A stretch of DNA of 46,773 bases from Oscillospiraceae bacterium (GTDB taxonomy: Bacteria; Bacillota; Clostridia; Oscillospirales; Oscillospiraceae), in contig JAFTFT010000006.1 of NCBI GenBank assembly GCA_017458335.1, positions 1 to 46,773 of the forward strand, given 5' to 3'. This document shows, one piece after another, positions 15,721 through 42,029 of the stretch. A model generated the notes under the pieces. The model did no database searches. It saw only the letters and a program-made list of their open reading frames with translations, and was not told where the DNA came from. Each line of letters begins with the position of its first letter. Positions within the stretch are counted from its first letter, which is position 1. Both the position numbers and the translations under genes were made by a program.

Positions 15721-17916
15721 ATGGAGACGGATCAGAACCGGCTGCGCCAGGATATTTCCCCGGCTGCGGCCTGGGCCTATGCCATCGGCACCAGCATCGG
15801 CTGGGGCTCTCTGGTGGTCACCTGCAACACCTATCTCGCTCAGGCGGGGATTCTCGGAAGCGTGATCGGAATGGTTCTGGGCGCCGCCGTCATGCTGATT
15901 ATCAGCCGGAACTATGCCTATATGATGCAGTGCTATCCGGAAGCCGGAGGCGCATATACCTTTGCCAAGGAGCAGTACGGGTATGACTATGGCTTCCTGA
16001 CGGCATGGTTTCTTTCCATGACCTATCTTGCGGTCCTCTGGGCAAACGCCACTTCTCTGCCGCTCTTTGCCCGGTATTTTGTGGGGGATATTTTCCGCTT
16101 CGGCAGGCTGTATTCGCTCTTCGGCTATGAGGTGTACCTCGGGGAGACGCTGCTTCCCATCGCGGCCGTGATTCTCACCGTGTTCTTTCTGACGAGGCAT
16201 AAAAAGGCCGCGGCACGGCTCATGGTGATCCTGGCGGCTGCCTTTGTACTCGGAATCGTTGTGGTGTTCGCCGGCGCCGTCCTCCGTCTGGACAGCTCGC
16301 TGGAGCCGGCCTATGTTCCGGAGAGCAGCGCGGTCTCGCAGATCATCAAAATTGCGGTCATTTCTCCCTGGGCCTTTATCGGCTTTGAGAATATCTCCCA
16401 TATGTCGGAGGAGTTTTCGTTCCGGCACAGCCGCTTTTTCCGTATTCTGGTCATCACGGTGATCTCCACTACGCTGCTTTATATCTTCATTTCGCTCCTT
16501 TCCGTCACGGCCTATCCGCCGGAGTACGCTTCCTGGCTGGACTATATGAGGGACATCGGGAAACTGGACGGACTCAAGGGGCTTCCGGCCTTCTATGCGG
16601 CGCAGCATTATATGGGCCGCTTCGGCGTGAGCATGCTGATGATTGCGCTGCTGGCGCTGATTGTCACCAGCCTGATCGGCAATACCACCGCGCTCAGCCG
16701 CCTCTTTTACGCGCTGGGAAAGGATCAGGTTCTGCCTGAAAAGTTCGCGGAACTGAATCGGCACGGCGCGCCGGGAAACGCGATCCTGCTGGTGGCGTGG
16801 CTCTCTCTGCCCGTCCCGTTTCTGGGGCGAACGGCAATCGGCTGGATTGTGGATATTACGACGGTCGGCGCGACCATCATTTACGCCCTCGTCTCGGCAA
16901 GCGCCCGGAAACTGGCAATCACCCGGAATGACCGGACGGAGAAGTGGACGGGTGCCCTCGGCTTTGTGGTCATGGCCTTCTTTCTGGCCTACGTTCTGCT
17001 TCCCAACCTGGTGGCGGAAAGCAACATGGCCAAGGAATCCTTTCTTCTATTTATCGTGTGGACGGTTCTCGGCTTTCTGTATTTCCGCAGCATCCTTCGG
17101 CGCGACCATGCCGCCCGCTTCGGCAAATCCCTGATTGTCTGGGTGGCGCTTCTGGCTCTGGTGCTGTTTATCGCCCTGATCTGGATGCGGCAGTCCATGG
17201 TGGATTCCAACCACCTGATGATGGAGAACATCAGCCGGTATTATCTTGCCTCACAGGACGGCCTCGCGGTTCGGATGGCGGACAGACAGTTCATTAATGA
17301 GCAGATGCGCAACCTCGAAAAAGCCGATACCCGCACCATCCTCATGGCGACAGGGATGTTTGCCTTCGCACTGGTCATCATGCTGAGCAACTACTCCTTC
17401 ATGAACAAACAGAAGGAGGAAATCGAGAAGCTTGCCAATACCGATTCCATGACCGGGGTCAGAAACAAGCACGCGTTCCTGATGACGGAACTGGAACTGG
17501 ACAACGCCATCCGCCGGAACACGGCGGCTGATTTTGCCGTGGTTGTCTGTGATGTCAACGGACTGAAATACATCAATGACAACTTCGGGCACAAGGCGGG
17601 CGATGAGTATATCCGCTCGGCCTGCGCGATAATCTGCGACCTGTTCAAACGCAGCCCGGTTTTCCGGACCGGCGGCGATGAATTTGTCATTGTGCTTCAG
17701 GGCCGTGATTATGAGAACCGGGAGAAGCTCATGGAGAACATGCGCCGGATTTCCGAGAGCCATGTCGGCACGGATCAGGCCGTCGTCTCATCGGGGATTT
17801 CGGATTATGTCCGCGGTTCCGATGAAAGCTGTCACGCTGTTTTTGAGAGAGCGGACAAGCTGATGTATGAAAACAAGCAGGCGCTCAAGCGCATGGGGGC
17901 CAGGTCGCGGTCGTGA
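15721..17916 (+). CDS. amino-acid-permease-like sensor fused to GGDEF domain
   Basis: A 731-residue membrane protein. Residues about 8-430 form an APC-superfamily permease module. Helix 1 carries AIGTSIGWGSL, matching the broken-helix binding motif, and helix 6 carries SPWAFIGFE. After it come a helix (about 465-485), an extracytoplasmic loop of about 60 residues, and another helix (about 540-560). A short linker leads to a GGDEF domain (about 570-725) with DSMTGVRNKHAF, CDVNGLKYINDNFGHKAGDE and an intact GGDEF at 651-655. The usual RxxD inhibitory site before GGDEF is absent. Domain content predicts a cyclic-di-GMP synthase gated by amino-acid binding or transport. The ATG at 15721 has GAAGGGAAG upstream. 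No clear promoter seen. It is a single-gene unit closed by a terminator and resembles the permease-kinase at 39210. Transport competence is unknown. Confidence 0.88.
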   Translation: METDQNRLRQDISPAAAWAYAIGTSIGWGSLVVTCNTYLAQAGILGSVIGMVLGAAVMLIISRNYAYMMQCYPEAGGAYTFAKEQYGYDYGFLTAWFLSMTYLAVLWANATSLPLFARYFVGDIFRFGRLYSLFGYEVYLGETLLPIAAVILTVFFLTRHKKAAARLMVILAAAFVLGIVVVFAGAVLRLDSSLEPAYVPESSAVSQIIKIAVISPWAFIGFENISHMSEEFSFRHSRFFRILVITVISTTLLYIFISLLSVTAYPPEYASWLDYMRDIGKLDGLKGLPAFYAAQHYMGRFGVSMLMIALLALIVTSLIGNTTALSRLFYALGKDQVLPEKFAELNRHGAPGNAILLVAWLSLPVPFLGRTAIGWIVDITTVGATIIYALVSASARKLAITRNDRTEKWTGALGFVVMAFFLAYVLLPNLVAESNMAKESFLLFIVWTVLGFLYFRSILRRDHAARFGKSLIVWVALLALVLFIALIWMRQSMVDSNHLMMENISRYYLASQDGLAVRMADRQFINEQMRNLEKADTRTILMATGMFAFALVIMLSNYSFMNKQKEEIEKLANTDSMTGVRNKHAFLMTELELDNAIRRNTAADFAVVVCDVNGLKYINDNFGHKAGDEYIRSACAIICDLFKRSPVFRTGGDEFVIVLQGRDYENREKLMENMRRISESHVGTDQAVVSSGISDYVRGSDESCHAVFERADKLMYENKQALKRMGARSRS

Positions 17917-17990
17917 GGCCGGGCGCCGGTACTTTGATCAGGTCCTGACGCGGCTGCGCCAGGGGTTCGCCCCGCCCGCGCGGGGAAGAA

Positions 17991-18024
17991 AAAACTGTCC
18001 CGGTCTCTGACCGGGACAGTTTTT
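17991..18024. terminator. bidirectional terminator
   Basis: AAAACTGTCCCGGTC pairs perfectly with GACCGGGACAGTTTT around a TCT loop, with A and T runs on each side. It serves the convergent permease-GGDEF and guaB genes. Confidence 0.9.
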
Positions 18025-18046
18025 GATCGGGGGAAACCCTTCGGGC

Positions 18047-19552
18047 TTACTTGAAGGAAGGGGTGGTGTCCTTCTGGATGACGTCGTGGGCGCCGCCTTC
18101 CACGATGCTCGTGGAGGAGACCAGCGTGAGCACGGCCTTTTCCTGCAGCTCGGGGATCGTCAGCGCGCCGCAGTTGCACATGGTGTGGCGCACCTTGCTC
18201 AGGGTCAGTGCGACGTTGTCCTTCAGGCTGCCGGCATAGGGAACGTAGGAATCGACGCCCTCTTCAAACGAGAGCTTCTTGTCGCCGCCCATGTCATAGC
18301 GCTGCCAGTTGCGGGCGCGTGCGGAGCCTTCGCCCCAGTATTCCTTATAATAAGTACCGCCGATGTTGACGCGGTTTGTGGGGCTCTCGTCGAAGCGGGC
18401 AAAGTATCTGCCCAGCATGACGAAGTCGGCGCCCATGGCGAGGGCGAGGGTGATGTGGTGGTCATAGACGATGCCGCCGTCGGAGCAGACGGGGACATAG
18501 ATCCCGGTCTCTTCATAGTAGCGGTCGCGCTCTGCGCAGACCTCAATGACGGCAGTGGCCTGGCCGCGGCCGATGCCCTTGGTTTCACGGGTGATGCAGA
18601 TGGAGCCGCCGCCGATGCCGACCTTGACAAAGTCCGCACCACAGTCGGCGAGAAAGCGGAAGCCGGCGGCGTCCACGACATTTCCGGCGCCGACCTTGAC
18701 GCTGTCTCCGTAGTGCTCCCGGATCCAGGCCAGGGTGAACTTCTGCCAGTCGGTATGCCCCTCGGAGGAGTCAATGCAGAGAACGTCCGCGCCGGCTTCG
18801 ATGAGGGCGGGGACGCGTGTGGCGTAGTCGCGGGTATTGATACCGGCGCCGACGACATAGCGCTTATGGGCGTCCAGCAGTTCGTTCGGGTTCTGCTTGT
18901 GCATGTCATAGTCCTTGCGGAATACGAAGTAGCAGAGGCGTCCGCTGTCGTCGATGATGGGGAGAGAGTTGAGCTTGTGCTCCCAGATGATGTCGTTGGC
19001 CTCTTTCAGGGTGGTGCCCTCTTTGGCCCAGACGAGCTTCTCAAACGGGGTCATAAACTCACGGACCTTCATCGAAGGCTCCATGCGGCTGACGCGATAG
19101 TCGCGGCTGGTAACGATGCCGATCAGCTTCCCGTCGGCGGTGCCGTCTTCGGTCACGGCGACGGTCGAGTGCCCGGTCTTTTCCTTGAGCGCCAGAATGT
19201 CGCTCAGGGTGGCGTCCGGACTGATGTTGGAATCACTGCGGACAAAGCCGGCCTTGTAGCTCTTGGCTCTGCGTACCATCGCGGCTTCGTCTTCTACCGT
19301 CTGCGAACCATAGATAAATGAAATACCGCCTTCCGTGGCGAGAGCGACTGCGAGCCGATCTCCGGAAACAGACTGCATGATCGCGGACACCATCGGAATA
19401 TTCATTGTGATGGCGGGCTCTTCTCCCTTGCGGAACTTCACAAGAGGAGTCTTCAGCGAAACATTCTCCGGGATGCACTTCGAGGAGGAATAGCCGGGGA
19501 TGAGCAGATACTCGTTAAAAGTATGAGCGGGTTCATTGATAATGGTCGCCAT
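18047..19552 (-). CDS. guaB: IMP dehydrogenase
   Basis: A 501-residue IMPDH, the NAD-dependent conversion of IMP to XMP that commits purine flux to GMP. The TIM barrel is interrupted by two CBS domains (about 95-210, with [20 protein letters not shown] and [10 protein letters not shown]). The catalytic cysteine lies in [21 protein letters not shown]-type sequence, and the GMP-binding [11 protein letters not shown] and the flap region follow. It starts from AAAGGAGAG at 8 bases and has its own strong promoter. No other purine gene is adjacent. Confidence 0.96.
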
Positions 19553-19572
19553 GAATTCTCTCCTTTCATATT

Positions 19573-19626
19573 ACGTCGAAAAAACGACATTTTGGTTATT
19601 ATAGGGAGCCGGGCGCCATTTGTCAA
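19573..19626 (-). promoter_or_regulatory. guaB promoter with small inverted repeat in the leader
   Basis: On the minus strand TTGACA (19626-19621), a 17-base spacer and TATAAT (19603-19598) form a consensus promoter. Just downstream, GTCG-TTTTTT-CGAC (19588-19575) forms a small inverted repeat that could be an operator or RNA hairpin before the ribosome site. Confidence 0.85.
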
Positions 19627-19702
19627 GCTTGGAAAGGCAGGGAAGAGACGCTTTTTTCAGCGCAATGACGCCTGTACATAAGTTTTTTACATTTTCCGGG
19701 AA

Positions 19703-19730
19703 AAACCTGATATAATAAACCTGATATAAT
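19703..19730 (+). promoter_or_regulatory. tandemly duplicated extended -10 promoter
   Basis: The 14-base word acctgatataataa occurs twice head to tail, giving two identical TGATATAAT extended -10 boxes (TATAAT at 19711 and 19725). TTTACA at 19686-19691 could act as -35 for the first at a 19-base spacing. It precedes the gene starting at 19803. Confidence 0.65.
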
Positions 19731-19802
19731 AATGAAATATGATCTGAAAAAACAGGCTCGGAAGACAGACGGCCGAAGGAAAACGGAGAGGAGGGACGCT
19801 GC

Positions 19803-22013
19803 TTGAAAACAACCGGATGGACAAGATTTCTGGCTCTGTGCCTTGCCGTTATCAGTCTCTCCATGCTGGTGTCCGGCGGACTCGGCATCCGGGCGGCGAA
19901 TAAGGAGCGGCGGAAAGACGAGTCCGAACTCCGGGACCTCCAAAGCCGGATTGACGAATACCGGGAAATCAGCGCCGCGCTGATGGACCGGGTTTCCTAT
20001 GAGGAACTGAACAAAACCCTGGAGGAAAAACAGAAGAAGTACGACACCGATACGGCGAAGCACCGCGCGGATCTGAGCACCTATACCGCGACAAACGGCG
20101 GCCTGGAAATGGGAACCGCCGCCCTCGACCAGGCGGAATCGGCGCTGGAAACCGGGAAGACGCAGATCGTGACCCTGAGAAAGGCACTTCGGAAGATGCT
20201 GAATATGCTTGAGCGGGTCACCGGATTGACCGGCGGCATCTCTTCGGGGCTGAGTACGGCGGAGGAGGTCATGTCCAAGATCCTGGAGATCCTCTCGGAT
20301 GACGGCGTCAGTGGAGGAAACAGCGGGTCCGTATTACGCCTGGAAAGCGCCGTTTCCGAATTGATTGATGCGCTTGAGAATTACAGCCCTCCTGCGGGTT
20401 CAGAACAGGCGGACGGGAACTCGTCCGGGGGCAATGGCGGAGCTGGATTCAATACGAATACAGGGGACGATGCTTCCAATAACAGTTCCGACGGCAGTGA
20501 AGAGCAGGAAAAGACCGGCGGCGAAGAGCAACTTGCGGAACCGGGTGACGGTCAGGAGAATCCCGTGACAGACCCGCCGGAAGACCCGGATACTGACCCG
20601 CCGGAAGACCCGCCGGAAGACCCGGATACAGACCCGCCGGAAGATCCTCCGGCAGACCCGCCGGAGGAGCCTGAGACAGACCCGGTGGAGGCCCCGCCGA
20701 GATCTCCCGAAACCGGGGAGACCGACTCCGGCGGGCAGAGAGTCCAAACGGCGCTGGACAATGTTGTGACGGAAATGAGGAAGCTCCTTGAGGATGCCGC
20801 AGTGATTCGCGGCAAAGCGGAGACTGTCGAAGTTCCGCCGAACATAATGGACGGTATTCTGCAGGCCGCGGAAGTGGGGAGCGCAGGGGAATTCATGTCA
20901 ATCATCAGGGAAGCGCTTCCCGGCGAAGACCCCGAGGCGGATGCCGAAACGCTTCAGCAAGTCTATGACATCCTTCAGACGATTGCCGCCATGGACGCGG
21001 GGAGTCAGCAGCTGGCAGACCGTATTCGGGAAGCGTCTGAACTGGCAGGAAACATTGAAGAGATCGGCGCTCTTGTGCGTGAAGCCATCAATCGGGTTCT
21101 GCTGGATGCTTTGACGGAAAATCCGGAATTTCCTTCCGGAAATGAGGAGTTCCTGAGACAGATCAAGGAAGCCTATGAAGCCAACAAAGGCGACATTCAA
21201 ATGATTCCGGAACTCCTTGAAGATGAGCGGGCAAGCGCTTACGAGGCTGTAAACAGCGCCTATGAGAAACTGACGGGACTGAACGGTCAGATCAGCGCGA
21301 TCACAAAAGCCCAATCCCAGCTCGCGGAGCAGCTTTCGGTTTTGCGGGAGACGGAAAAAGAGCTCGAAGAGGGCGAAGCGGCCCTGGCCGAGGGCCGGGC
21401 GCAGCTGGACGCGGCGAAGGACGAACAGAAGAAAAAGGCCGAAGAACTGGACAAAAAGAAGCGGGATCTGGATGCGCAGGAGAAGCTGCTTCAGCAGAGC
21501 GCGGAAGAGGCCGAGAAACAGAAAAAACTGGAGGAGCGAGAGAAAACGCTCAAATCGGCTCTCCTGTCCAGGGAAGAGATTCGACGCGGAAACCGGGACG
21601 GAATGGATCTCCTGACCGCGTCCGAGAAATGGCTGGAAGAGTATACGCGGCAGGCGGGAGAGAAGTATCGGGACCGGTTTGACGCCGGCGTGCTGATGAT
21701 GATCGGCGCGGTTCTGGCCATGGCCGGCGCACTGTTGAGTTTCGGAAAGAACGCCAATCCGTACTTCGCGCCGGTCGTGACGATCCTCTGCCTGGCCTTC
21801 TCCGGTTCCGCGGCATTCCTGCTCTACCGCATGGGGCGGGGGATCAGCTGGTCGGCCGCCGTGACGGCGCTGATCGCCGCGGCGGAACTGGTTTTGCTGA
21901 TTCCGTCGCTGCCCGTTTTCGGACAGGCGGCGGACCCGGGCGGGACGCGAAAGGCGCGAACGGGAAAAACCGGAACAAAATCAGCGGAAAACCCGGATGA
22001 AAAGAAGAAATAA
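19803..22013 (+). CDS. membrane-anchored coiled-coil protein with Pro/Asp/Glu-repeat spacer
   Basis: A 736-residue protein that I do not recognise. The only start with a good ribosome site (GGAGGG, 8 bases) is TTG at 19803. Residues about 6-26 are a signal anchor. A coiled coil spans about 35-150. An acidic Ser/Gly/Asn stretch leads into a PPEDPDTDPPEDPP-type repeat (about 255-300), then a helical region (about 310-490). A highly charged coiled coil at about 500-590 is rich in KKK and EEL. Three hydrophobic helices end the protein (about 625-650, 655-675, 680-705) with a basic tail. Probably the chain spans from a wall-exposed spacer to the membrane. The arrangement recalls Pip/YhgE-type envelope proteins with SAQ-like hairpins, but that is only a resemblance. 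It is separate from tig, which has its own promoter. Confidence 0.75.
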   Translation: MKTTGWTRFLALCLAVISLSMLVSGGLGIRAANKERRKDESELRDLQSRIDEYREISAALMDRVSYEELNKTLEEKQKKYDTDTAKHRADLSTYTATNGGLEMGTAALDQAESALETGKTQIVTLRKALRKMLNMLERVTGLTGGISSGLSTAEEVMSKILEILSDDGVSGGNSGSVLRLESAVSELIDALENYSPPAGSEQADGNSSGGNGGAGFNTNTGDDASNNSSDGSEEQEKTGGEEQLAEPGDGQENPVTDPPEDPDTDPPEDPPEDPDTDPPEDPPADPPEEPETDPVEAPPRSPETGETDSGGQRVQTALDNVVTEMRKLLEDAAVIRGKAETVEVPPNIMDGILQAAEVGSAGEFMSIIREALPGEDPEADAETLQQVYDILQTIAAMDAGSQQLADRIREASELAGNIEEIGALVREAINRVLLDALTENPEFPSGNEEFLRQIKEAYEANKGDIQMIPELLEDERASAYEAVNSAYEKLTGLNGQISAITKAQSQLAEQLSVLRETEKELEEGEAALAEGRAQLDAAKDEQKKKAEELDKKKRDLDAQEKLLQQSAEEAEKQKKLEEREKTLKSALLSREEIRRGNRDGMDLLTASEKWLEEYTRQAGEKYRDRFDAGVLMMIGAVLAMAGALLSFGKNANPYFAPVVTILCLAFSGSAAFLLYRMGRGISWSAAVTALIAAAELVLLIPSLPVFGQAADPGGTRKARTGKTGTKSAENPDEKKK

Positions 22014-22016
22014 TGA

Positions 22017-22045
22017 TTGATTTTATAAATGAAATCTGTTATGAT
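22017..22045 (+). promoter_or_regulatory. promoter of tig-clpP
   Basis: TTGATT, a 17-base spacer and TATGAT lie 35 bases before the trigger-factor start. Confidence 0.75.
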
Positions 22046-22079
22046 ACCGGAGCATGTGCAGATGAGGAGGAAAGATTCC

Positions 22080-23477
22080 ATGATTTTGAAAAACATCGAG
22101 AAGAAAGAGCACAATACTGCAGTATTTACAGTTGCCGCGGATTCGGCCGAATTTGAAAAGGCCGTCAACGGCGCTTATCTGAAGAACAAGAAGGATGTTT
22201 ATATTCCCGGCTTCCGCAAGGGCAAGGCCCCGCGTCAGGTGATTGAGGGCATGTACGGCAGGGAAGTCTTTTACCAGGACGCGATGGACGATCTGGCCCC
22301 CGAAGCCTTTTCCCTCGGCGTGAAGGAAGGGGAGCTTCGTGTGGTCGGCCAGCCCCGCATCTCCGACGTCAATGTGACGGAGGAAAAGGCCTGCGAGTTT
22401 ACTTTTGACGTGACCACCTATCCGGAAGTCGTCCTCGGCGACTACAAGGGCATCGAAGCCCTCCGCACGTCCGAGACGGTCTCGGACGAGACGGTCGATA
22501 ACGAGATTAAGAGTGTTCAGAAGCGCAATGCCCGTATGCTGACGGTCGAGCGCCCCGCCGAAATGGGCGACACCGTGAACATCGACTTTGAAGGCTTCCT
22601 CAACGGCGAGCCGTTTGACGGCGGCAAGGCGGAAGGCCATTCCCTCGAACTCGGCTCCAACTCCTTTGTCCCCGGCTTTGAGGAGCAGCTGGTCGGCATG
22701 AGCGCCGGCGAGGAGAAGGACATCGACATCACCTTCCCCGAGAACTATGCCGAGAATCTGGCCGGCAAGGCGGTGGTTTTCCACATCGTCTGCAACGAGG
22801 TCAGCGCTCCCGAGTATCCGGAGCTGGACGATGAGTTTGCCAAGGACGTCTCCGAGTTTGATACCTTTGAAGAATACAAGGCCGACGTGCGTGCGAATCT
22901 CCAGAAGCGCATGGACGACAGCGCCGAGACCGCGTTCAAGGATGAAGTGATCCGCAAGGCCTGTGAGAATATGACCGGCGAGATCCCCGAAGTGATGTTC
23001 GAGGAGAAGGTTGACGAGTTCCTGCGCAACTACGCCGCCCAGTTCGGCATGAACGACCGCGACATGACCCGCGAAGAGCTGCTCAAACTCTTCGGCATGA
23101 ACGAGGATTCCCTGAAGTTCTCCATCCGCCCGGCCGCCGAGGCCCAGGTGAAGACCGAGCTGCTTCTCGAGGCCGTCGCGAAGGCCGAGGGGCTGGAGCC
23201 GACGGAAGAGGAGCTCCAGGCCTATTATGAGAAGACCGCGAAAGACGTCGGCGCCACGGCGGACGATGTCAAGCGCTACTTCGGCGAGGACTTCCTGAAG
23301 AACGAGCTCAAGAAGGAGCAGGCCATGAACCTGATCGTCGGCAGCGCCGTCGCGAAGTCCGCGGATGAGATGGATCCGGAAGAGGCCGCGAAGGAAATGA
23401 AGGAAGAGTTTGCCGATGAGGTCGCCGGCGAAGCCGTCGCCGAAGCGGTGGAGCAGGCTGAGGAGAAGGCGGAATGA
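22080..23477 (+). CDS. tig: trigger factor
   Basis: A 465-residue ribosome-associated chaperone and peptidyl-prolyl isomerase. The ribosome-docking signature [11 protein letters not shown] lies in the N-terminal domain. The FKBP-type isomerase domain ([20 protein letters not shown] to HIVCNEV) follows, then the long helical C-terminal arms. The acidic tail ([10 protein letters not shown]) is typical. ATG 22080 has AGGAGG 9 bases upstream; an earlier in-frame start at 22029 would overlap the promoter. Its stop overlaps clpP by ATGA. Confidence 0.95.
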
Positions 23478-24055: not shown

Positions 24056-24060
24056 GTCAG

Positions 24061-24094: not shown

Positions 24095-24122
24095 GAGCTA
24101 TACTGCTTGAAGGAGAATTGGA

Positions 24123-25382
<1,260 letters not shown>

Positions 25383-29330: not shown

Positions 29331-29455
29331 AGTGCTATGTGATTTTCTACGTGGTTTTTTTATAATCATTTTGCCCAAATGGGGGCTCGATTCCTCTGCA
29401 CGGTCTTGACCGACCGGATTTTCAGCCGGAAACAGGCGGAATGGAGAATGCGTTT

Positions 29456-30550
29456 ATGCCGAGCAGAATTTTTCAGAATGTTATTATTCAGATGAAAGAC
29501 TCCGTCGACAGGACGGTCGGCGTTGTGGACGATCAGGGCTATATCATCGCCTGCAGTGAGCTTGCGGCCATCGGGTCGCGGGTGGAGGACTTCCGCCTCA
29601 ACCTTGTCGACAGTGTCAGTCACGAGCTCGTGACGGCCGGGCGGACCTATGTGCTTCTCAGTTCCGAGAGCGGCCAGCTCGGTTACGCGGCCTTCGTGGA
29701 CGGCACCGACGCCGTCGCGAAGACGGTCTGCGCCATCTCAGCCGTCGCCTTTGACGAGGCGCTGGCCAATTATGAGGAAAAGCACAACCGCGCGGCCTTT
29801 ATCAAGAACATCATCTCCGACAACATTCTGCCGGGGGATGTCTATGTCCGGGCGAAGGAACTCCATTTTGTCACGGATGAGCCGCGTACGGTCTTCCTCA
29901 TGCGTCAGACGGAAAACGCCGACGTGGCGGCCGGGGAGCTTGTGAGCCGGCTGTTCCCGGACCGGCAGCATGACTTCGTCCTGAACATCAACGAAAGCGA
30001 CATCGTGGTGGTCAAGTCCCTTCAGGCGGACACTTCGAAGGAAGAGATCCACGCCATCGCCGCGGGGATTGAGAAAGCGCTGTATGAGCAGCTCGGAATC
30101 CGCTGCGTCATCGGCATCAGCACCGAGGCCCGCCATCTGCGGGAACTGGCCGACCGCTACAAGGAGGCCCAGGTCGCCATCGACGTCGGCCGCGTCTTTG
30201 AAAGCGACAAGACCATCATCCATTATGAGAGTCTCGGCCTCGGCCGTATCATCTATCAGCTCCCCACCACCCTGTGTGAGATGTTCCTCAACGAGGTCTT
30301 CAAAAAGAACCCCATCGAGACCCTGGATGAGGACACCCTGGAGACGATCAACCGCTTCTTTGAGAACAATCTTAACGTTTCCGAAACATCCCGGAAACTG
30401 TATGTTCACAGAAATACGCTAGTATACAGGCTTGAGAAAATCAAAAAAATCACGGGCCTGGATCTTCGTGAGTTTGATCACGCCATCGTGTTCAAGGTCG
30501 CGATGATGGTAAAGCAGTATCTCGATTCCCTGAATACGTCGAAATACTGA
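29456..30550 (+). CDS. CdaR/PucR-family transcriptional regulator
   Basis: About 364 residues from the ATG at 29456, which has GGAG 9 bases upstream; an ATG at 29441 has a poorer site. The N-terminal sugar-diacid-recognition domain (IFQNVIIQMKDSVDRTVGVVD) is followed by a GGDEF-like middle fold without catalytic residues, and then a C-terminal PucR-type HTH (NLNVSETSRKLYVHRNTLVYRLEKIKKITG). CdaR regulates glycerate or glucarate use in E. coli, but no such genes lie here. It precedes ftsE by 51 bases, so it may be read together with the division genes. The ligand is unknown. Confidence 0.85.
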   Translation: MPSRIFQNVIIQMKDSVDRTVGVVDDQGYIIACSELAAIGSRVEDFRLNLVDSVSHELVTAGRTYVLLSSESGQLGYAAFVDGTDAVAKTVCAISAVAFDEALANYEEKHNRAAFIKNIISDNILPGDVYVRAKELHFVTDEPRTVFLMRQTENADVAAGELVSRLFPDRQHDFVLNINESDIVVVKSLQADTSKEEIHAIAAGIEKALYEQLGIRCVIGISTEARHLRELADRYKEAQVAIDVGRVFESDKTIIHYESLGLGRIIYQLPTTLCEMFLNEVFKKNPIETLDEDTLETINRFFENNLNVSETSRKLYVHRNTLVYRLEKIKKITGLDLREFDHAIVFKVAMMVKQYLDSLNTSKY

Positions 30551-33554: not shown

Positions 33555-34802
33555 ATGAGACGGATCTTCCACCACATGTTCGGCGGCGTGGGAATTTTCC
33601 TGCGGCGTCTGTTCAGTCTTGGAATTCCGCTGTGGTTTGTCCTGCTGATGGTGCTGGGCTCGCTCTTTGCCACGCGGATCATCACCCGCAACCAGGTGGT
33701 CCGGGAGGTCGGCGGAGCGGAGGACTTCGACGAGGCCATGCGCTACATCGAAATCAAGGACATCATTGACGAAAAGTTCATCGAACCTGTCGACCGCAAG
33801 AGCATGGGCTATTCCGCGGCCATCGCGATGGTCTCGGGCCTCGGCGATTCCTGGAGCAGCTTCCTGACCGATGATGAATACAAAACCTACCAGCTCTCGT
33901 CATCGAACGAATACGCCGACATCGGTATGAGCCTGGTCAAGGATTCCAGCGGCGGCTTCCAGGTGGTTACGGTCTACCCCGATTCCCCGGCGGCCCGCTC
34001 GGGCGTTGTGATCGGCATGCTGATCACCGCGGTGGACGGCCAGAGGGTCACGGAGTATTCCACCGATGAAGTCCGGACCCTGATTCGCTCAAAAATGAAC
34101 GGGAAGTTCAATCTCAGCGTCGTCGGCATGACCGACCCGCTGGAGATTGACGCGACCAATGTCAATTCCGAGGCCATCACCTACCGTCTGGAGAAGACGG
34201 GGGCCGGCTATGTCCAGATCCACAACTTTGAAGCGGGCAGCGGGCAGGCCGCGGTCGACGCGGTCGAGTACCTTCTGAGCCAGGGGGCGGTCTCTCTGGT
34301 CGTCGACGTGCGTGACAATTCCGGCGGCCTCACCACCGAAGCCGCGATCTTCCTAGACTACCTGCTTCCGTCGGGGCGGCTGTTTTCGGATATCAGCAAG
34401 GACGGCACCGAGCGTGTCACAGAATCCGACAGCATGAGTCTGGAACTGCCCATGGTGGTGCTCATCAACGCCGGCAGCTTCCGCGAGTCCGAGCTCTTTG
34501 CCCAGGTCCTGAAGGATTACCGCTGGGCAACCCTGATCGGCGAGCCCACCACCGGAAACACGCGAACCCAGGAAGTCATCGTCCTGAACGACGGAAGCGC
34601 CCTGCGCCTGAGTACGCACAGTCTGCTGTCCGCCAGCGGGATCGACATCGCCGCCGCGGGCGGCGTCGTACCCGATATGATCGTCTTCAACCGCAACGCC
34701 GCGGCCACCGGCACGACCGAGGGTACGGTCGGCGGGGAAGAGGGCACGGCGAGCGTGTCGGATGATACACAGCTGATGGAAGCACTCAGATTCCTGAGCT
34801 GA
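33555..34802 (+). CDS. S41-family C-terminal-processing peptidase homologue, catalytic Lys replaced
   Basis: A 415-residue CtpA/CtpB-like membrane-anchored protein. An N-terminal helix is at about 20-40, a PDZ domain at about 115-200, and the S41 core at about 210-390. The serine region INAGSFRESELFAQVLKDY keeps the Ser position of the SASASEI motif in relatives. The next motif, usually GE(x)TFGKGxVQ, reads GEPTTGNTRTQ: the catalytic lysine is Asn (codon AAC), while the Gln is kept. It may be an inactive scaffold or use altered chemistry. The position after the ftsEX-M23 genes suggests a role in regulating wall hydrolysis, by analogy with Ctp proteases that degrade hydrolases. Start has AAGGAG. 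Confidence 0.85.
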   Translation: MRRIFHHMFGGVGIFLRRLFSLGIPLWFVLLMVLGSLFATRIITRNQVVREVGGAEDFDEAMRYIEIKDIIDEKFIEPVDRKSMGYSAAIAMVSGLGDSWSSFLTDDEYKTYQLSSSNEYADIGMSLVKDSSGGFQVVTVYPDSPAARSGVVIGMLITAVDGQRVTEYSTDEVRTLIRSKMNGKFNLSVVGMTDPLEIDATNVNSEAITYRLEKTGAGYVQIHNFEAGSGQAAVDAVEYLLSQGAVSLVVDVRDNSGGLTTEAAIFLDYLLPSGRLFSDISKDGTERVTESDSMSLELPMVVLINAGSFRESELFAQVLKDYRWATLIGEPTTGNTRTQEVIVLNDGSALRLSTHSLLSASGIDIAAAGGVVPDMIVFNRNAAATGTTEGTVGGEEGTASVSDDTQLMEALRFLS

Positions 34803-34827
34803 ACAATCTTTTGAGGAGAGAAGAAAC

Positions 34828-35322
34828 ATGGCCAGTTCAAATTCCAATCGTTACAAAATGAGCCAGGAACGCCTGGAAGAGCTCAAGAAAGAGCTCAACT
34901 ACATGGAGACCGTCCGCGAAAAAGAGGTCTCCGAGCAGATCAAGGAAGCCAGAAGCTTCGGCGACCTGTCCGAGAACAGCGAGTACGATGAGGCGAAGAC
35001 CGAGCAGGGCAAGCTCTACTCCCGCATTGCCGAGTACAAGGACCTGATCGAGCACGCCGAAATCGTGGACAACGTGGACCACAATCTCCCGAAGGATGCC
35101 GTGACCCTGGGCAGCATTGTCATGGTGAAGGATCTGGACGAAGACTTTGAGGATAAGTATGAGATCGTCGGCTCCCAGGAGGCCAACCCCCGCGAGGGGC
35201 GGATTTCCGACGATTCTCCGGTCGGCAAGGGCCTGATCGGCCACCGTGCCGGCGATACCGTGACGATTCCGGTTCCCGCGGGCGAGATCCGGATTGAAGT
35301 GATCTCGGTCGAGAATCCGTAA
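34828..35322 (+). CDS. greA: transcription elongation factor GreA
   Basis: A 164-residue GreA: an N-terminal coiled coil that enters the RNA polymerase secondary channel, with the acidic tip in FGDLSENSEYDEAK, and a C-terminal FKBP-like domain (GLIGHRAGDTVTIPVPAGEI). It rescues backtracked polymerase by stimulating transcript cleavage. GAGGAG precedes the start. The greA-lysS pairing is frequent in clostridia. Confidence 0.96.
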   Translation: MASSNSNRYKMSQERLEELKKELNYMETVREKEVSEQIKEARSFGDLSENSEYDEAKTEQGKLYSRIAEYKDLIEHAEIVDNVDHNLPKDAVTLGSIVMVKDLDEDFEDKYEIVGSQEANPREGRISDDSPVGKGLIGHRAGDTVTIPVPAGEIRIEVISVENP

Positions 35323-35331
35323 GGAGAGCCC

Positions 35332-36849
35332 ATGGAAGAAGTAAAAGAAAGCACCCTGCCCCGGGGCTCCGAGGCGCAGGCTTCCGAACCGCAGGTGTCC
35401 GAACTTCTGCAGATCCGCCGTGACAAGCTGGCCGAGCTTCAAGCGGCTGGCCGCGACCCCTTCCGCGAGACCCGCTTTGACCGGGACGCGACCTCCGCCG
35501 GCATCAAAAACGCCTTTGACGAGTATGAGAACCGGCAGGTCTCCGTCGCCGGGCGCATCATGTCCAAGCGCGGCATGGGCAAGGCCATCTTCTGCCACAT
35601 CCAGGACCGCGAGGGCCAGATTCAGCTCTACATCCGCAAGGACGCCGTCAGCGAGACCGAGTTTGTCGACTTCCGGAAGTACGACGTCGGCGACATTATC
35701 GGTGTGCGCGGCTATGTCTTCAAGACCCAGACCGGCGAGATCACCGTCCATGTCGAGCACGTCACCCTTCTGACCAAGTCCCTCCGCCCCCTGCCGGAGA
35801 AGTACCACGGCATGACCAACACGGACCTGCGCTATCGCCAGCGCTACACCGACCTGATCATGAACGCCGAGGTGCGCGAGACCTTCATCCGCCGCTCCCG
35901 CATCATCTCCAGCATCCGCCGGTATCTCGACGCTCAGGGCTTCCTCGAGGTGGAGACCCCCATGCTGGTTCAGAACGCCGGCGGCGCCGCGGCGCGTCCC
36001 TTCCTGACCCACTTCAACGCCCTGGACCAGGATCTCAAGCTGCGCATCTCCCTGGAGCTGTATCTGAAGCGCCTGATCGTCGGCGGCCTGGAGAAGGTCT
36101 ATGAGATCGGCCGCGTCTTCCGCAACGAGGGCATGGACACGAAGCACAACCCCGAATTCACCCTGATGGAGCTGTACCAGGCCTATACCGACTTCCACGG
36201 CATGATGGACCTGACCGAGAACCTCTACCGCCACGTGGCGCAGGAGGTCCTGGGCACCACCGTCGTCACCTACAACGGGACCGAGATCGACCTCGGCAAG
36301 CCCTTTGCGCGCATCACCATGACCGACGCGGTGAAACAGTACAGCGGCGTGGACTTTCATGAGATCCATACCCTGGAAGAGGCGCGGGCTGCCGCGAAAG
36401 CGAAGGGGATCGAATATGAAGAGCGCCACCAGAAGGGCGATATCCTGAACCTGTTCTTCGACGCCTTTGTGGAAGAGCATCTGATCCAGCCCACCTTCCT
36501 GACCGAGCACCCTGTGGAGATCTCTCCGCTGACCAAGCGGAAACCGGATGACCCCGAGCATGTCGAGCGCTTTGAGCTCTTCATCAACGGCTGGGAGATG
36601 GCCAACGCCTACTCCGAGCTGAACGACCCTATCGACCAGCGCGAGCGCTTCCGTCATCAGGAGGAGCAGCTGGCCAAAGGCGACGAAGAGGCCAACACCA
36701 CGGACGAGGACTTCCTCAACGCCCTGGAGATCGGCATGCCGCCCACGGGCGGAATCGGCTACGGCATCGACCGCCTGTGCATGCTTCTGACCGACAGCCC
36801 GGCCATCCGCGACGTCCTGCTCTTCCCGACAATGAAGCCACTTGACTAA
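35332..36849 (+). CDS. lysS: lysyl-tRNA synthetase, class II
   Basis: A 505-residue enzyme. The N-terminal OB-fold anticodon domain ([18 protein letters not shown]) is followed by class II motif 1 (around FLEVETPML), motif 2 ([15 protein letters not shown]) and motif 3 ([12 protein letters not shown]). AAGGAG lies 5 bases before the ATG, and it is 9 bases from greA. It is the last clearly core gene before the composite accessory region begins a few bases after its stop. Confidence 0.96.
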
Positions 36850-36911
36850 AAAAGCCCGTAAAATCAAGGTTTTTACTCAGAAAAGCTTACGACTTACGAC
36901 ATTTTTACGAC
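36850..36911. repeat. possible integration-site region with three TTACGAC repeats
   Basis: Directly after lysS is a stretch aagcccgtaaaatcaaggttttt that resembles attachment-site cores I recall from clostridial integrative elements. TTACGAC follows three times (36887-36893, 36894-36900, 36905-36911), the third 11 bases from the second. Such spacing suits integrase arm sites. Site function is inferred; the repeats are plain in the sequence. Confidence 0.4.
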
Positions 36912-36955
36912 AGTCGGAAGAGGACATGCAAAGGGTTATAAGCATTTATAACGCA

Positions 36956-36989
36956 AGAGGCGTGGTAGACAATGAGCTATCACGCCTCT
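36956..36989. repeat. 13-bp inverted repeat in the gene-free gap
   Basis: AGAGGCGTGGTAG pairs with CTATCACGCCTCT with a single G-T pair around an 8-base loop, without a T-run on either strand. The gap 36850-37187 holds no gene that I can support. It is A+T-rich and also contains TTGTATGT/ACATACAA at 37098-37129 around CCTTAAGG. Confidence 0.6.
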
Positions 36990-37161
36990 AAACATGCCTA
37001 AAATGCGCTAGAATTGCTTCAAACAGGTCTGACGATATCTTGCCTGCCAGAACGATTTGAAATCAGCACAGAGGCGATTACAATGAATTCACGCTATTTG
37101 TATGTAGTGTTACCTTAAGGCACATACAAGGTATGGCATGTTTTTATTAAGAGAGAAAGTT

Positions 37162-37186
37162 AAAGCACCCAATTACGGGTGCTTTT
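37162..37186 (-). terminator. terminator after the DUF6262 gene
   Basis: AAAGCACCC pairs with GGGTGCTTT around AATTAC, two bases beyond the stop of the minus-strand gene, with a T-rich tail on that strand. It could also act on plus-strand transcripts. Confidence 0.7.
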
Positions 37187-37187
37187 C

Positions 37188-37733
37188 TCATTCAAGTGAA
37201 TTAAGAGGACTTTCTGCTCTGACTCGGAAGAAGCCGTTTTCGTCTACTTCTTTACCGCCTAACTTATACATGGTTCCGACATAGCGGAATTTGTGGTCTC
37301 TTATTCCCCTTAACCTCTCATTGATAAACTCAGTCAGAATAACTTCTTCTCTCTGATAAGTCGTAATCCGTTCTTTCAGTAAAGACACGTATTTAGCTTC
37401 CAGAACGGCTTTTTCTTTCTCAAGCTCGTTGATATCAAGAAGAAGTCTTTCGCTCTTGGTGAGCTTTGTAGCAGCTCTCGGCTTTACTTTGGATTTAGCC
37501 TTGATATACTCTAATATCTCATCGTGCTTATAGATGAAAGACGTAGAGCAGCCCACACCTAAAGCGACCCGCTTGACTGTGACAGGAGCACCAGCCTTAA
37601 CACAAGAGTCCACAAACGCTTTGCAGCGGCCTATGAGCTCTTCGCTGTTTCTCTTATTTGCTTTTGTTAAAACACGAACCGATGCAGGACGAGAGTCTTC
37701 TTTTTCGTCATCATCAATTCTTCCATCGACCAT
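37188..37733 (-). CDS. DUF6262/TnpC-like transposon accessory protein
   Basis: A 181-residue protein. The central APVTVKRVALGVGCSTSFIYKHDEILEYI pattern (an HTH with SxSFIYKN/H-type helix) and a long coiled coil (about 90-150, SERLLLDINELEKEKAVLEAKY) match DUF6262 proteins, the TnpC partners of Tn554-type tyrosine-recombinase transposons. TnpC guides orientation and efficiency of integration in Tn554. Here the partner recombinase upstream is truncated, so the gene is probably an orphan. The start lacks a good ribosome site; the frame is open 54 bases further upstream, suggesting it was once coupled to the recombinase gene. It is A+T-richer than the core genes. Confidence 0.65.
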   Translation of the reverse strand: MVDGRIDDDEKEDSRPASVRVLTKANKRNSEELIGRCKAFVDSCVKAGAPVTVKRVALGVGCSTSFIYKHDEILEYIKAKSKVKPRAATKLTKSERLLLDINELEKEKAVLEAKYVSLLKERITTYQREEVILTEFINERLRGIRDHKFRYVGTMYKLGGKEVDENGFFRVRAESPLNSLE

Positions 37734-37752
37734 GGCCTTGGCGATAACTTCC

Positions 37753-38000
37753 TCATAGGAGAGGTCTATCTCCTTCCAAGTCTAGATAGTATTGTCCGTC
37801 ATCAGATTTCTTCAGGGCTTCGGATTTTAAGTAGGCTAATTCACTAAACCTCATACCAAGCATTAAGAGTATATAAACCATCTTTCTGTATGGATTATTC
37901 ATCTTTGGAAGCACCGATACAATGCCATCAACTTCTTCTGTTGTTAGTGCACGATTTTTATTGTAGTACTTATAGCAGATATCGCTGCTTAGTATGGTGT
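37753..38000 (-). pseudogene. truncated tyrosine recombinase fragment
   Basis: On the minus strand, ALTTEEVDGIVSVLPKMNNPYRKMVYILLMLGMRFSELAYLKSEAL is a recognisable piece of a tyrosine recombinase core containing the first active-site box with its arginine (GMRFSEL). The HxxRH box and catalytic tyrosine are missing: the frame stops soon after YYLDLEG. Upstream, similarity ends at about 38000, where plus-strand ParB-like sequence begins. The gene is broken at both sides. Confidence 0.7.
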
Positions 38001-38976
38001 GCTGACCCCGGCGATTGCAAGACCGGATCCGGATGGAGGGTATGAAATCATTTCCGGACACCGGCGGATGCGGGCCTGTGAGCTTGCAGGAATCAAGACG
38101 CTGCCGGTGATCGTGCGGGATATGGACGACGATACCGCCATTATTTTCATGGTGGACGCCAATCTTCAGCGAGAGCATATCCTTCCCAGTGAGCGGGCAT
38201 TTGCGTACCGGATGAAGCTGGAGGCAATGAAGCACCAAGCTGGGAGACCGTCAAAAGAAAATTATTCCCAAGTTGGGAATAATTCCGGGAAAACATCAAG
38301 TCAGGAAAGGTCATATACACCGCAGCAGATGCAGGACGTTATCGTAAAGCTCCTGGATCAGTGGCAGAAGAAACGAAACAGAGATCAGTCAAGATATGCT
38401 GCCTATATGAAATACAGGCATTATCGGTCTGAAAGAAAAACCGTGAAGGAGCAGAAAAAGGCACAGAAGGCAAAGGAAAAGTCAGAGATTCACGGCAAGC
38501 AGAGCGTGAAGGATCTGGTCGGTCAGAACCAGGGCGTTTCCAACATGGAAATCGCCAAGACTGACCTGAAGGGCTTTGAGCGGGTGACCCGGAAGTACGG
38601 TGTGGACTATGCGATCCGGAAGGACCCTTCACAGGATCCGCCAAGGTATATCGTCTTCTTCAAGGCGAGGGATGCGGATGCGCTGACAGCCGCCTTTATC
38701 ACAAAAGAGCTTCTTTCAATTCTTGGTCATCAGAAGGACTATCACTGCCTGATAGACTACGGCTCAAAGGCAATCCGGCTCGAACCGGGGCTCCAGGATG
38801 CATATTACTGGGTTATTATCGCTGCCGAAAATATAGGCAACAGCGCGACGCGTGAGAGATGCCTTGCCACGGCCAGGCAGGAACTGACGGATGAAGAATA
38901 CGAAAAGCTGACACACATGCTGAACGCATCCAAAGTGGTGGATACGGCTATTTTGGCAGGTCAGTCGCAGGGATAA
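37999..38976 (+). pseudogene. chimeric frame: ParB fragment + PcfB/DUF3801 + BTAD fragment
   Basis: An uninterrupted 325-codon frame from a GTG, with three unrelated parts. Residues 1-102 are a ParB-like nuclease fragment lacking its beginning (GYEIISGHRRMRACELAGIK, NLQREHILPSERAFAYRMK), cut before the ParB helix-turn-helix. Residues about 103-233 match the mating-pore-associated PcfB/DUF3801 family of conjugative elements (VSNMEIAKTDLKGFERV, RKYGVDYAIRKDP, PPRYIVFFKARDADAL). Residues about 234-306 look like the end of a BTAD helical-repeat regulator (DYHCLIDYGSKAIRLEPG, LTDEEYEKLTHML). All joints are in frame. It is most simply a deletion scar, although a made protein cannot be excluded. No ribosome site precedes the GTG. 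Confidence 0.65.
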
Positions 38977-39050
38977 CATGATAGTGCAGGAGTGGTTACC
39001 GCACAATGCAGCAGCCGCTCTTGCTTTATCATGTATTGCCGGCATAAACA

Positions 39051-39112
39051 GAAACCACAATCGAGGCGGTTGTTTTTGCAGTAACCTGCATAAGCAGCCG
39101 TCTCTTTTTTGC
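39051..39112 (+). terminator. terminator, first copy of a repeated hairpin
   Basis: GAGGCGGTTGTTTTTGCAG pairs with CTGCATAAGCAGCCGTCTC, and a six-T run follows at 39105-39110. The sequence, including the leading AACCACAATCG, recurs almost identically at 46697-46757. Within the 38977-39209 gap there is also an ACATGATA/TATCATGT inverted repeat (38976-39034). Confidence 0.8.
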
Positions 39113-39141
39113 GTTTTTGGATCAGCTATATGCGATACGGA

Positions 39142-39179
39142 TTGACTAAATATAGACGATAATGTAAAATAATAGACGA
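39142..39179 (+). promoter_or_regulatory. promoter of the sensory cassette with a direct repeat
   Basis: TTGACT, a 17-base spacer and TAAAAT (39165-39170). ATAGACGA occurs at 39152-39159 and 39172-39179, exactly 20 bases apart, on both sides of the -10 box. This is the arrangement expected for an activator or repressor dimer. Confidence 0.7.
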
Positions 39180-39209
39180 AATGCTCTTTGATTAACCGGA
39201 GGAATATAC

Positions 39210-42029
39210 ATGGACGAACACAAGCCACAAACCTTAAAGCCGTTGGATCGCTATCTGTCTGTTATTGATGTCTGGGCGATGGCTTTTGGCTGCATGGTCG
39301 GCTGGGGCGTATTTGCGATGCCCGGAACGACGTTCCTCCCGGTCGCCGGTCCACTGGGCACGGTATGTTCCATGCTGATCGGTACGGTTATCATGCTGAT
39401 CATCGCCGGCAACCTGTCTTATATGATGGGCCGTTCATCGGTGACAGGCGGGATATATGCCTATACCAAAGAAGCCTTCGGAAGGGATCATGCCTTTTTG
39501 AGCTCCTGGTTTTTATGTCTTTCCTATCTGACTATCGTTTTTCTTAACGGCACAGCATTGTTCTTTATCGTCCGGACTCTGTTCTCCGATGCGGCGCAAA
39601 GCGGTGCTTATTACACCATCTCCGGACATAACATTTATCTTGGCGAGACTCTGGTGTCTGTTCTGGTACTTGCGGGTACAGGTATTCTTTTTGTTGCGGC
39701 AAAGCCTGCGCTCCAGCGGATCCATACGGTACTTTCTTTGATTCTTTTCGCCGGGATCATTGTGACGGCAGCGTTCTGTGTGCCGCATGTTTTTGCGGGC
39801 GGGGAACCGCAGCCCTTTGGAACATCCGGGGTCAACAGCGGCTATGCGGTGTTCAGCCTGGTGATCCTGGCTCCATGGGCCTTTGTGGGTTTTGAAGTAA
39901 CGGCATTCGATACGGCACATTTCAAGTTTCCGGTCCGAAATTCAAAAAAGGTTCTTTTCCTTGCCATCCTGGCTGCAGCGGCAGCGTATATTTCCATGAC
40001 ATTTGTCAGTATCGCTTCTGTTCCGGATGGATTTTTGTCATGGCAAGAGTACATTGGCAGTCTGGAAAATATGAAGGGCGTGGCATCTGTGCCGACCTTT
40101 TATGCAGCGAAATCCATCATGGGACCGGCAGGACTGGTCATCATGACACTGACGGCGGTTGCATCTATCCTTACAGGCATCATTGGAGGGTACCGGGCCA
40201 CGACCCGTGTCCTTTCAACGATGGCGGAGGATCGTATCCTTTCTGAGAGGTTCTCAAAAACGACCTACAGTATCGTGTTTATTATGGTGCTGTCCATCCT
40301 GCTTTCTTTGCTCGGCAGAAATACGCTGAACTGGTTTGTGGATCTTACATCCTTTGGCGCGATCGTCGGTTTCGGATATTCTTCGGCCGCAGCCTGGAAG
40401 CTGGCACGGGCTGAAGGAAACAAAAAAACGACTGTAACGGGGATGATCGGGACGATCCTGTCTGCAGTCTTTGTCATTGTTCAGCTTGTTCCACGCCTGA
40501 CGGCTAGGGAGGCGATGGGCAGCGAGGCTTTCCTGCTTCTTTCTCTCTGGTGCCTTCTTGGCTTTGTGTTCTACTGGAGGACTGTCGTCAGGAGTACGCT
40601 CACGGAATACAGCGGCATATCCACATCGGGCATTGTTCTGTTTGCCCTGCTGGTCTATTCCGCACTCATGTGGATGGCAAAGCTGCTTATCGCCGGAGAA
40701 AACGCAGACCAGATGAAGCAGGCTCTTTCCCGGGGCGGCCTCATCCTTATTGCAATCATATTCGTGGGCCTTGCTGTGATGCTGTATGTGCAGAATGTCG
40801 TCCGTACGAAACACGAAGCGGCCGAACGGGAAAAGATCCATGCGGTGGAAAGCAGCCTTGCCAAGAGCCGGTTCCTGTTTAATATGTCGCATGATATCCG
40901 CACCCCGATGAACGCGATCATCGGATATATCAATCTGGCACGAAAGGAATCGGATCCTGCGAAGATCCGCGGATATCTTGATAAGATCGACGGTTCCAGC
41001 CAGCACCTGCTCGCGCTGATCAATGACATTCTTGAAATGAGCCGTATCGAAAACGGTAAGATCGAATTGGAGTACGCGCCGCTGGATCTGGGTGTTGTGT
41101 TTGAGGAAATCAGGAGCCTGTTTTCAGAACAGATGAAACAGAAGCATCTGGACTTCCAGGTTCACACGGAGCAGGTGCAGAACCGCTATGTATGGTGCGA
41201 TAAAAACAGCCTGAACCGTGTGCTCCTTAACATCATAAGCAACGCATACAAATTTACGCCGGATGGAGGCACGATCACGGTTTCTCTTCTGGAAACAGGC
41301 AACGGAGAAAAAGGTTACGGCTCCTATGAGATCCGTGTGCAGGATAACGGTATCGGCATGTCCAAAGAGTTTGCTGAAAAGATGTTCATCGCTTTTGAAA
41401 GGGAGCGGACCTCCACGGAAAGCGGAATGGAGGGAACCGGCCTTGGCATGTCGATCACAAAGAGCCTTGTCGATCTGATGGGCGGTGTGATTGACGTCCT
41501 GACGGCACCCGGTTCCGGTACAACGATGATCATCCGTATCAAATTCAAACTGGCGGAAGAAAAAGATGTTCACAGTCCGGGAGGCAAAAGCAGTGATGAG
41601 GCTGATGTCGGAACGGAGGCAGGTCCTGAAATGGATTTTACCGGCCGGCGGCTTCTTCTTGCAGAGGATAATGCGATCAATATGGAGATCGCAGTTATGA
41701 TCCTGTCGCAGGCAGGCTTTACGGTGGAGACAGCAGAAAACGGGAAAGAAGCGCTGGATATGGTCGCATCCTCAAGCCCGGGCTATTATGACGCCATTTT
41801 AATGGATATACAGATGCCTGTCATGGATGGATATGAGGCTGCGAGGGCAATACGCGCTTTAGATAACCCGGAGCTGGCAGAGATCCCGATCATAGCGATG
41901 ACAGCAAACGCATTCAAAGAAGATGAACAGGCGGCAGAGCAGGCGGGCATGCAGGGACATATTGCAAAGCCGATCGACCTGCAGAAAATGATGGAGACGA
42001 TCCGCACAGTGATTCAAAGAAAAGGGTGA
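39210..42029 (+). CDS. amino-acid-permease-like hybrid histidine kinase
   Basis: A 939-residue membrane protein. Residues about 12-430 form an APC permease module: helix 1 has [15 protein letters not shown] and helix 6 has APWAFVGFE. Two more helices (about 475-495 and 510-530) flank a short outer loop. Then come a linker, HisKA ([14 protein letters not shown], His561), HATPase_c ([28 protein letters not shown]) and a receiver with phospho-acceptor Asp866 in [12 protein letters not shown]. No HPt or DNA-binding domain is present. Start has GGAGG 7 bases upstream. It probably senses an amino acid through a transporter-like fold, comparable in principle to CbrA (SLC5-type transporter with kinase) and yeast Ssy1. 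Whether it transports is open. It is first in a cassette with the XRE and SBP-kinase genes. Confidence 0.9.

Follow-up and report, generated by a model that had tools for sequence, protein, structure and literature searches.

Receptors that derive from transporters are already known. In yeast, the APC-superfamily protein Ssy1 acts as an amino acid receptor; it works together with partner proteins, has a long N-terminal part in the cytosol and is not known to carry a fused enzyme. In Pseudomonas, CbrA joins an SLC5 transporter domain with histidine as input to a histidine kinase (HK) in one chain, with STAC and PAS domains placed between membrane part and kinase. In the passages of two reports that concern it, CbrA binds and internalises histidine, whether this uptake drives the kinase is disputed, and no siblings with GGDEF, EAL or HD-GYP outputs are named (PMC13022988, PMC8871633). 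Ks-Amt5 of Kuenenia is a repurposed trimeric transporter with an Amt domain for ammonium and a directly fused kinase without HAMP; the passages describing it report lost transport and mention no REC domain (PMC5764959). The 5TMR receptors are described, in the excerpt on them, as a transporter-related membrane fold of the ECF S-component type with GGDEF, EAL or HK outputs (PMC11109136). Here, a stretch of 46,773 nt was analysed, contig JAFTFT010000006.1 of the Oscillospiraceae bacterium assembly GCA_017458335.1 (the window), from a draft of 44 contigs that is 84% complete. Two of its genes, P0001 and P0002, join an APC-permease-like membrane input to different outputs. With a probability of roughly 0.7, both are APC-derived membrane receptors in which ligand-driven movement is passed through added helices to the outputs.

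Both reading frames were open and complete on translation and had one layout, an AA_permease_2 (APC) domain, two extra membrane helices and an intact output. AA_permease_2 was matched at residues 17-449 of P0001 (109.1 bits, E 3.3e-31) and 16-428 of P0002 (77.9 bits, E 9.9e-22), with a curated cut-off of 27 bits. At E<=1e-3 the membrane parts matched AA_permease families only, with no hit to SLC5 (SSS) or Amt. By BLASTP the permease parts showed 31% identity and 54% positives over 494 columns (E 1e-76), a likeness well above chance, and the inputs are homologous. A preliminary description, made from the sequence alone, had proposed a common APC module for the two proteins, and both the profile search and the alignment agree with it; the membrane parts do not belong to unrelated families. 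The permease motifs it quoted were found in both proteins, but the last (..FLL..W..LGF..) fits loosely. Its common helix-loop-helix unit before the output held as a topology but not in size, since the outer loop between transmembrane helices (TM) 13 and 14 is longer in P0001 (~46 residues) than in P0002 (~16), as read from sequences, models and linkers. TM13 and TM14 were placed by hydropathy and models, with no fold search of this part alone. The AlphaFold2 model of P0001 (mean pLDDT 87.3, pTM 0.76) showed the overall APC (LeuT-type) fold, with TM1 broken at residues 26-27 by DSSP. Its structural matches included GkApcT (6f34/5oqt) and other APC transporters, which are alike in fold and family and differ as plain 12-helix proteins with no output. 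The genome holds a third copy, a kinase form, on contig C23 outside the window; its input was 69% identical to that of P0002.

The outputs were as first described. P0001 ends in a GGDEF domain (residues 572-721, E 2.5e-24), in which G651, G652, D653, E654, F655, D611, N619, D628 and K719 were invariant in 41 aligned sequences. We take D611, N619, D628 and K719 to be the metal and GTP residues. With these and the GGDEF motif intact, P0001 is a predicted diguanylate cyclase. An RxxD sequence upstream of GGDEF is an optional product inhibition site, and none was seen by eye in P0001 or in the consensus (HSPVFRxGGDEF). Our profile at 528-729, comprising TM14 and GGDEF, matched region 411-625 of an Amt-GGDEF protein (PDB 8qj3/8qj4/8qpf), whose membrane domain differs in being an ammonium transporter by its PDB listing name only; no paper on this structure was found in the open-access literature search. 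P0002 ends in HisKA, HATPase_c and REC, all three recognised by Pfam. H561, D866 and K920 were invariant in 18 aligned sequences, and with the HisKA histidine, the ATPase boxes and the REC aspartate present P0002 is a predicted hybrid histidine kinase. From the end of TM14 (residue 531) to the start of HisKA (551) it has about 20 residues, one helix in the model. This is too few for a four-helix STAC domain; STAC models were not looked up by name. Together with the AA_permease assignment, this linker sets P0002 apart from the SLC5-based CbrA, as the preliminary description had held.

The family of these inputs was large. About 8000 candidates were scored per query, and at E<=1e-10 the input part of P0002 matched 1140 proteins and that of P0001 1545. 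Few of the best 120 matches per query were named, nine as amino acid permease and one as signal transduction histidine kinase. Relatives of P0001 numbered 308 in a scan with one genome per species, and 80 loci were kept. All 80 matched P0001 over almost its full length, among them the strain-named Lachnospiraceae bacterium AD3010 (L080). Many record titles referred to ruminant gut samples, and a few relatives were labelled Coriobacteriaceae, Chloroflexi or Anaerolineaceae, or Treponema. Two Chloroflexota-labelled records (L014, L050) have neighbour genes in common and are therefore probably not stray contigs. The distribution was patchy. Matches, which include plain permeases, were present in 11 of 101 genomes when the family was surveyed at E<=1e-25. 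At E<=1e-40 they were present in 11 of 392 genomes from the class, 8 of 299 from the phylum and, in a further survey of the family, 37 of 400; the survey samples overlap. Pieces or stop-carrying copies occurred as well (G954:C30, G1020:C91, G913:C21, L107).

Outputs at L010-L089 comprised 75 full GGDEF forms and GGDEF with EAL (8 full, 1 partial), with REC between them in 7 of 9. HK-REC was represented by 4 full forms and 1 partial, and HK-REC-REC by one. Two modules had no recognised output; one runs off its locus (L083) and the other is a 264-residue piece (L085). HD-GYP type outputs (L116, L123; Pfam HD_5) and PAS-GGDEF (L188) came from the surveys, and GGDEF-REC-GGDEF-EAL outputs were also carried by this input. 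The reuse of one input with swapped outputs, proposed from the two genes, was supported, but the outputs are not limited to two. Of 91 GGDEF entries, duplicates counted, 89 had an outer loop of 35-57 residues. Eight HK forms share this long loop, and in the P0002 group it is short and variable in sequence. A strict TM13 pattern alone fitted 27 of 86 GGDEF and 3 of 17 HK linkers; neither form of it fitted 18 GGDEF and 6 HK linkers. P0001 and P0002 belong to this large family, whose members are likely nutrient receptors. No description of APC permease-output fusions turned up in the open-access literature, which was searched for such fusions and for analogous systems, subscription papers being outside its scope. 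This agrees with the preliminary description, which knew of no system with an APC input, and an APC family with many outputs appears to be undescribed in that literature.

The features separating these sensors from plain relatives, that is, permeases of the same subfamily without output and of up to 499 aa, were sought in an alignment of 128 rows in GkApcT numbering. Duplicate loci and modules with fewer than 400 aligned residues were left out, and helix numbers were taken from the model. The GWG motif marks the permease subfamily. It was rejected as a sensor mark, being present in 13 of 19 plain relatives (GFG in 5, a gap in 1). Position 237 was E in 88/88 GGDEF, 15/17 HK and 2/2 HD-GYP forms; the plain relatives had D in 15 of 19 and never E. 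Position 240 was P in all 19 plain relatives and in no sensor. Seventeen columns, calculated with 18 distinct plain rows, had a plain residue at 70% or more that was almost absent from the sensors. They include 121 (P to W in TM3), 237, 240, 241 (Q to H in TM6), 319 and 321 (in TM8, F to N in the GGDEF forms). It is thus substitutions in helices 3, 6 and 8 that mark the sensors, for example GFD..PQ becoming GFE..S, with D to E and P to S in TM6. A held-out check by alignment of all loci L155-L198 gave 30 new modules, 29 fused and one plain. The fused modules had E at 237 in 29/29, P at 240 in 0/29 and W at 43 in 27/29, and the plain module (L179) had D at 237 and P at 240. An earlier held-out check by text pattern gave 20/20 (34 loci yielded 26 rows; 23 rows had sensor length, and 3 of those 23 were wrong hits) and missed loci. 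The signature marks predicted sensors and is no proof of function. Substrate-site segments were among the invariant parts of the input in the 41 GGDEF forms.

A tree of 100 modules was calculated without the added helices and with GGDEF rows more than 66% alike thinned. All 81 fused rows stood on one side of a branch and the 19 plain rows on the other, with full support and in 200/200 bootstrap trees. The 63 GGDEF, GGDEF-EAL and HD-GYP rows formed one group (support 100/99, 200/200 bootstrap trees). The tree supports one domestication of an APC permease as a receptor; its plain rows were found with sensor queries, and a closer plain relative may be missed. In this careful tree, HK forms made up several lineages below the GGDEF group, with the group of P0002 nearest the plain side. 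They formed one group in 0/200 bootstrap trees, and the bootstrap had not settled. The approximately unbiased (AU) test kept a single HK clade (p 0.363), and with an earlier quick tree the tree held to one HK clade was the better one (p 0.841). The long outer loop of eight HK forms agrees with HK as the ancestral output, which is not claimed because the AU test does not reject a single HK clade.

Family members often stood together. An APC-HK gene was present in the same stretch at 6 of the 80 GGDEF-query loci (L011, L013, L021, L059, L085, L088), and the cut module of L083 was almost identical to the APC-HK of L085 (summed branch length ~0.03). A BLAST-clustered gene family occurred near APC-GGDEF at 14 of 81 loci; one scanned member (L054) was REC-GGDEF-EAL, a domain order fused behind the APC-GGDEF form at other loci. 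Being fused in some cases and adjacent in others, the two therefore likely act in one pathway. For the HK forms, 24 loci were compared, several sharing a genome (the window, L090, L139-L147, L184-L187, L189, L190 and L192-L198). An EAL gene was in the stretch at ten of them (L139, L140, L144, L184, L185, L186, L189, L192, L194, L090). The one at L090 (~8650-10887, on C23 of the window's own genome), near the third APC kinase, was of the REC-EAL type, and in this assembly its frame is interrupted by a stop codon behind the REC part. Of the 24 loci, 16 had either an EAL gene or a further kinase, or 17 counting the tandem APC-HK pair of L147. At L059/L184 three members stood in a row, APC-HK-REC-REC, APC-GGDEF-REC-EAL and APC-GGDEF. 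Kinase forms often adjoin genes for REC-EAL phosphodiesterases, further kinases or GGDEF forms, which suggests a family centred on cyclic di-GMP (c-di-GMP). As a separate observation, the APC kinase of L146 adjoins two ATP-binding cassette (ABC) exporter genes (10358-14739), one with a C39 peptidase (peptide export). Neighbours of plain permeases hint at substrates. Tandem plain permeases lay beside class-III aminotransferases (L152, L153), and at L150 a single one adjoined a glutamate symporter and a gene of the ornithine cyclodeaminase family.

If P0001 and P0002 are receptors, the 12-helix APC domain would bind a small ligand at the LeuT-fold site between TM1 and TM6. The ligand would most likely be an amino acid or a related amine or acid, because of the family membership and because 3 of 4 plain loci have an amino-acid enzyme gene as neighbour. 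Whether or not transport goes with it, binding would switch the domain between outward- and inward-facing states; both modes are possible, given the lost transport of Ks-Amt5 and the histidine uptake of CbrA. The unit of TM13, outer loop and TM14 would ride on the APC domain, with TM14 continuing as one helix into the output, and the helix path from input to output was continuous in the models. The shift may then turn or separate the helices of an output dimer. In P0001 it would set diguanylate cyclase activity. In P0002 it would set autophosphorylation and the relay to REC and to a partner, which in many relatives is probably a REC-EAL phosphodiesterase encoded nearby. Of this scheme, we infer the ligand class, the conformational coupling, the dimer and the partner.

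Several observations weigh against it. The model of P0002 was weaker (mean pLDDT 73.6, pTM 0.54), and a single-sequence PDB search with its input gave no relative at E<=0.01; its fold was not searched. DSSP of the P0001 model gave TM6 as a single unbroken helix (204-231). Tryptophan replaces Thr43 of GkApcT in TM1, and so the ligand may bind unlike in known APC proteins. The TM5 lysine of GkApcT is absent from the sensors, and from plain relatives as well. No named or curated transporter model reached its cut-off, and no substrate was named. The signature separates two clades and may reflect one inherited event. The fourth plain locus (L151) adjoins purine genes. At 7 of the 24 HK loci neither EAL nor a second kinase was present (L145, L146, L187, L190, L193, L197, L198); among these were a GGDEF gene at L145 and L190 and a REC gene at L193.

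The strongest rival, doubtful in our view, is a true transceptor like CbrA, a working amino acid transporter whose output reports flux, so that transport is sensing. The substrate-site elements GxxxGWG and WAF.GFE, kept in the aligned GGDEF forms and nearly so in HK forms, speak for it, as do the binding and uptake of histidine by CbrA. Against it, the sensors differ from plain relatives in the transport core, at the TM3, TM6 and TM8 changes given above, and by analogy with Ks-Amt5, where the cited passages link a changed site with transport loss (PMC5764959), such changes may go with lost transport. Loss of the TM5 lysine was rejected as proof of lost transport, plain relatives also being without it. 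It is unlikely that the APC domain serves chiefly for docking, with the signal coming from an SBP-type hybrid kinase, a PnrA-like protein, a separate transporter or the TM13-loop-TM14 unit. P0002 and the APC-HK of L195 do lie near double SBP_bac_3 or SBP-type hybrid kinases, a PnrA-like binding protein gene (6348-7442) adjoins the APC-HK of L142, between it and a hybrid kinase, and the outer loop is of narrow length in GGDEF entries. However, P0001 has no such neighbour, substrate-site segments are conserved in the GGDEF forms, and the loop of the P0002 group is short and variable. Reverse flow, in which the GGDEF or kinase part of a transporter regulates uptake by cytosolic GTP, c-di-GMP or phosphorylation, has precedents in APC-fold transporters whose tails are nucleotide-regulated, such as KimA with c-di-AMP, which was among the structural matches; it is very improbable, as the outputs are whole enzymes that retain their catalytic motifs, and EAL and HD-GYP members are hard to read as regulatory tails. 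The chance of an assembly or binning artefact is negligible despite the draft state of the genome, and assembly error was ruled out by more than 1,000 protein matches per input, by full-length copies 98-99% identical over the input (P0123 and P0003), which represent clusters of 75 and 260 sequences, and by the 80 nearly full-length loci.

Table 1. Positions of P0001, P0002, their parts and a neighbouring kinase gene in the window.
Feature	Position	Strand	Basis
APC-GGDEF receptor gene P0001, 731 aa	15721..17916	+	translation, Pfam, AlphaFold2 model
P0001 residues 1-461, 12-helix APC (LeuT-fold) input domain	15721..17103	+	
P0001 G27-W28-G29 in TM1; W28 aligns with GkApcT T43	15799..15807	+	alignment
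P0001 PWAFIGFE (216-223), TM6; E223 in GkApcT D237 column, member of sensor signature	16366..16389	+	alignment
P0001 residues 470-558, TM13, outer loop (~46 residues) and TM14	17128..17394	+	model, linkers
P0001 residues 572-721, GGDEF domain	17434..17883	+	Pfam
P0001 residues 651-655, intact GGDEF motif	17671..17685	+	invariant in 41 aligned sequences
APC-hybrid histidine kinase gene P0002, 939 aa	39210..42029	+	translation, Pfam, model
P0002 residues 1-461, APC input domain	39210..40592	+	Pfam, BLASTP
P0002 G31-W32-G33, TM1	39300..39308	+	translation, alignment
P0002 PWAFVGFE (222-229), TM6	39873..39896	+	translation, alignment
P0002 residues 470-531, TM13, short outer loop (~16 residues) and TM14	40617..40802	+	model, linkers
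P0002 residues 551-616, HisKA; H561 invariant in 18 aligned sequences	40860..41057	+	Pfam, alignment
P0002 residues 664-779, HATPase_c	41199..41546	+	Pfam
P0002 residues 816-932, receiver domain (REC); D866 invariant in 18 aligned sequences	41655..42005	+	Pfam, alignment
SBP_bac_3 hybrid kinase gene, next larger same-strand gene after P0002, 1225 aa	42349..46026	+	

Two minus-strand genes flank P0001 in the window, one for tRNA-Ser (gct), immediately upstream (15487-15578), and one for IMP dehydrogenase. A PucR-type helix-turn-helix protein with a GGDEF_2 (GGDEF-like) domain is encoded at 29441-30550. Just before P0002 (37188-38976) lie genes for a DUF6262 protein (minus strand) and a ParB_N/DUF3801 protein (plus strand), possibly remains of a mobile element. 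By eye, P0002 carries GGAGG seven bases 5' of its ATG, and P0001 the weaker sequence GGGAAG. The SBP_bac_3 kinase downstream, with two SBP_bac_3 stretches, HisKA, HATPase_c and two REC domains, does not belong to the APC family and is a possible partner of P0002. Between the two, a 99-residue frame (42033-42332) had by eye the look of a small XRE-type DNA-binding protein.

A wider proposal is tentative, at a little under even odds. In anaerobic gut bacteria, or earlier in their ancestry, an APC permease would have been domesticated a single time as a general plug-in receptor for c-di-GMP enzymes (GGDEF, GGDEF-EAL, HD-GYP) and for phosphorelays directed at REC-EAL proteins, often in matched sets in which one nutrient pocket sets both the making and the breaking of c-di-GMP. 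If the receptor reading is true, more than 1,000 predicted proteins, the few named ones mostly called amino acid permease, would be receptors. They would be bacterial receptors built on the APC fold, which is common to the human SLC7 transporters. A residue-by-residue comparison of receptor and transporter versions of one subfamily would become possible, with plain GWG permeases and sensors as a natural pair for finding the change from transporter to receptor. In gut and rumen Clostridia, extracellular nutrients would be linked directly to c-di-GMP and to phosphorelays.
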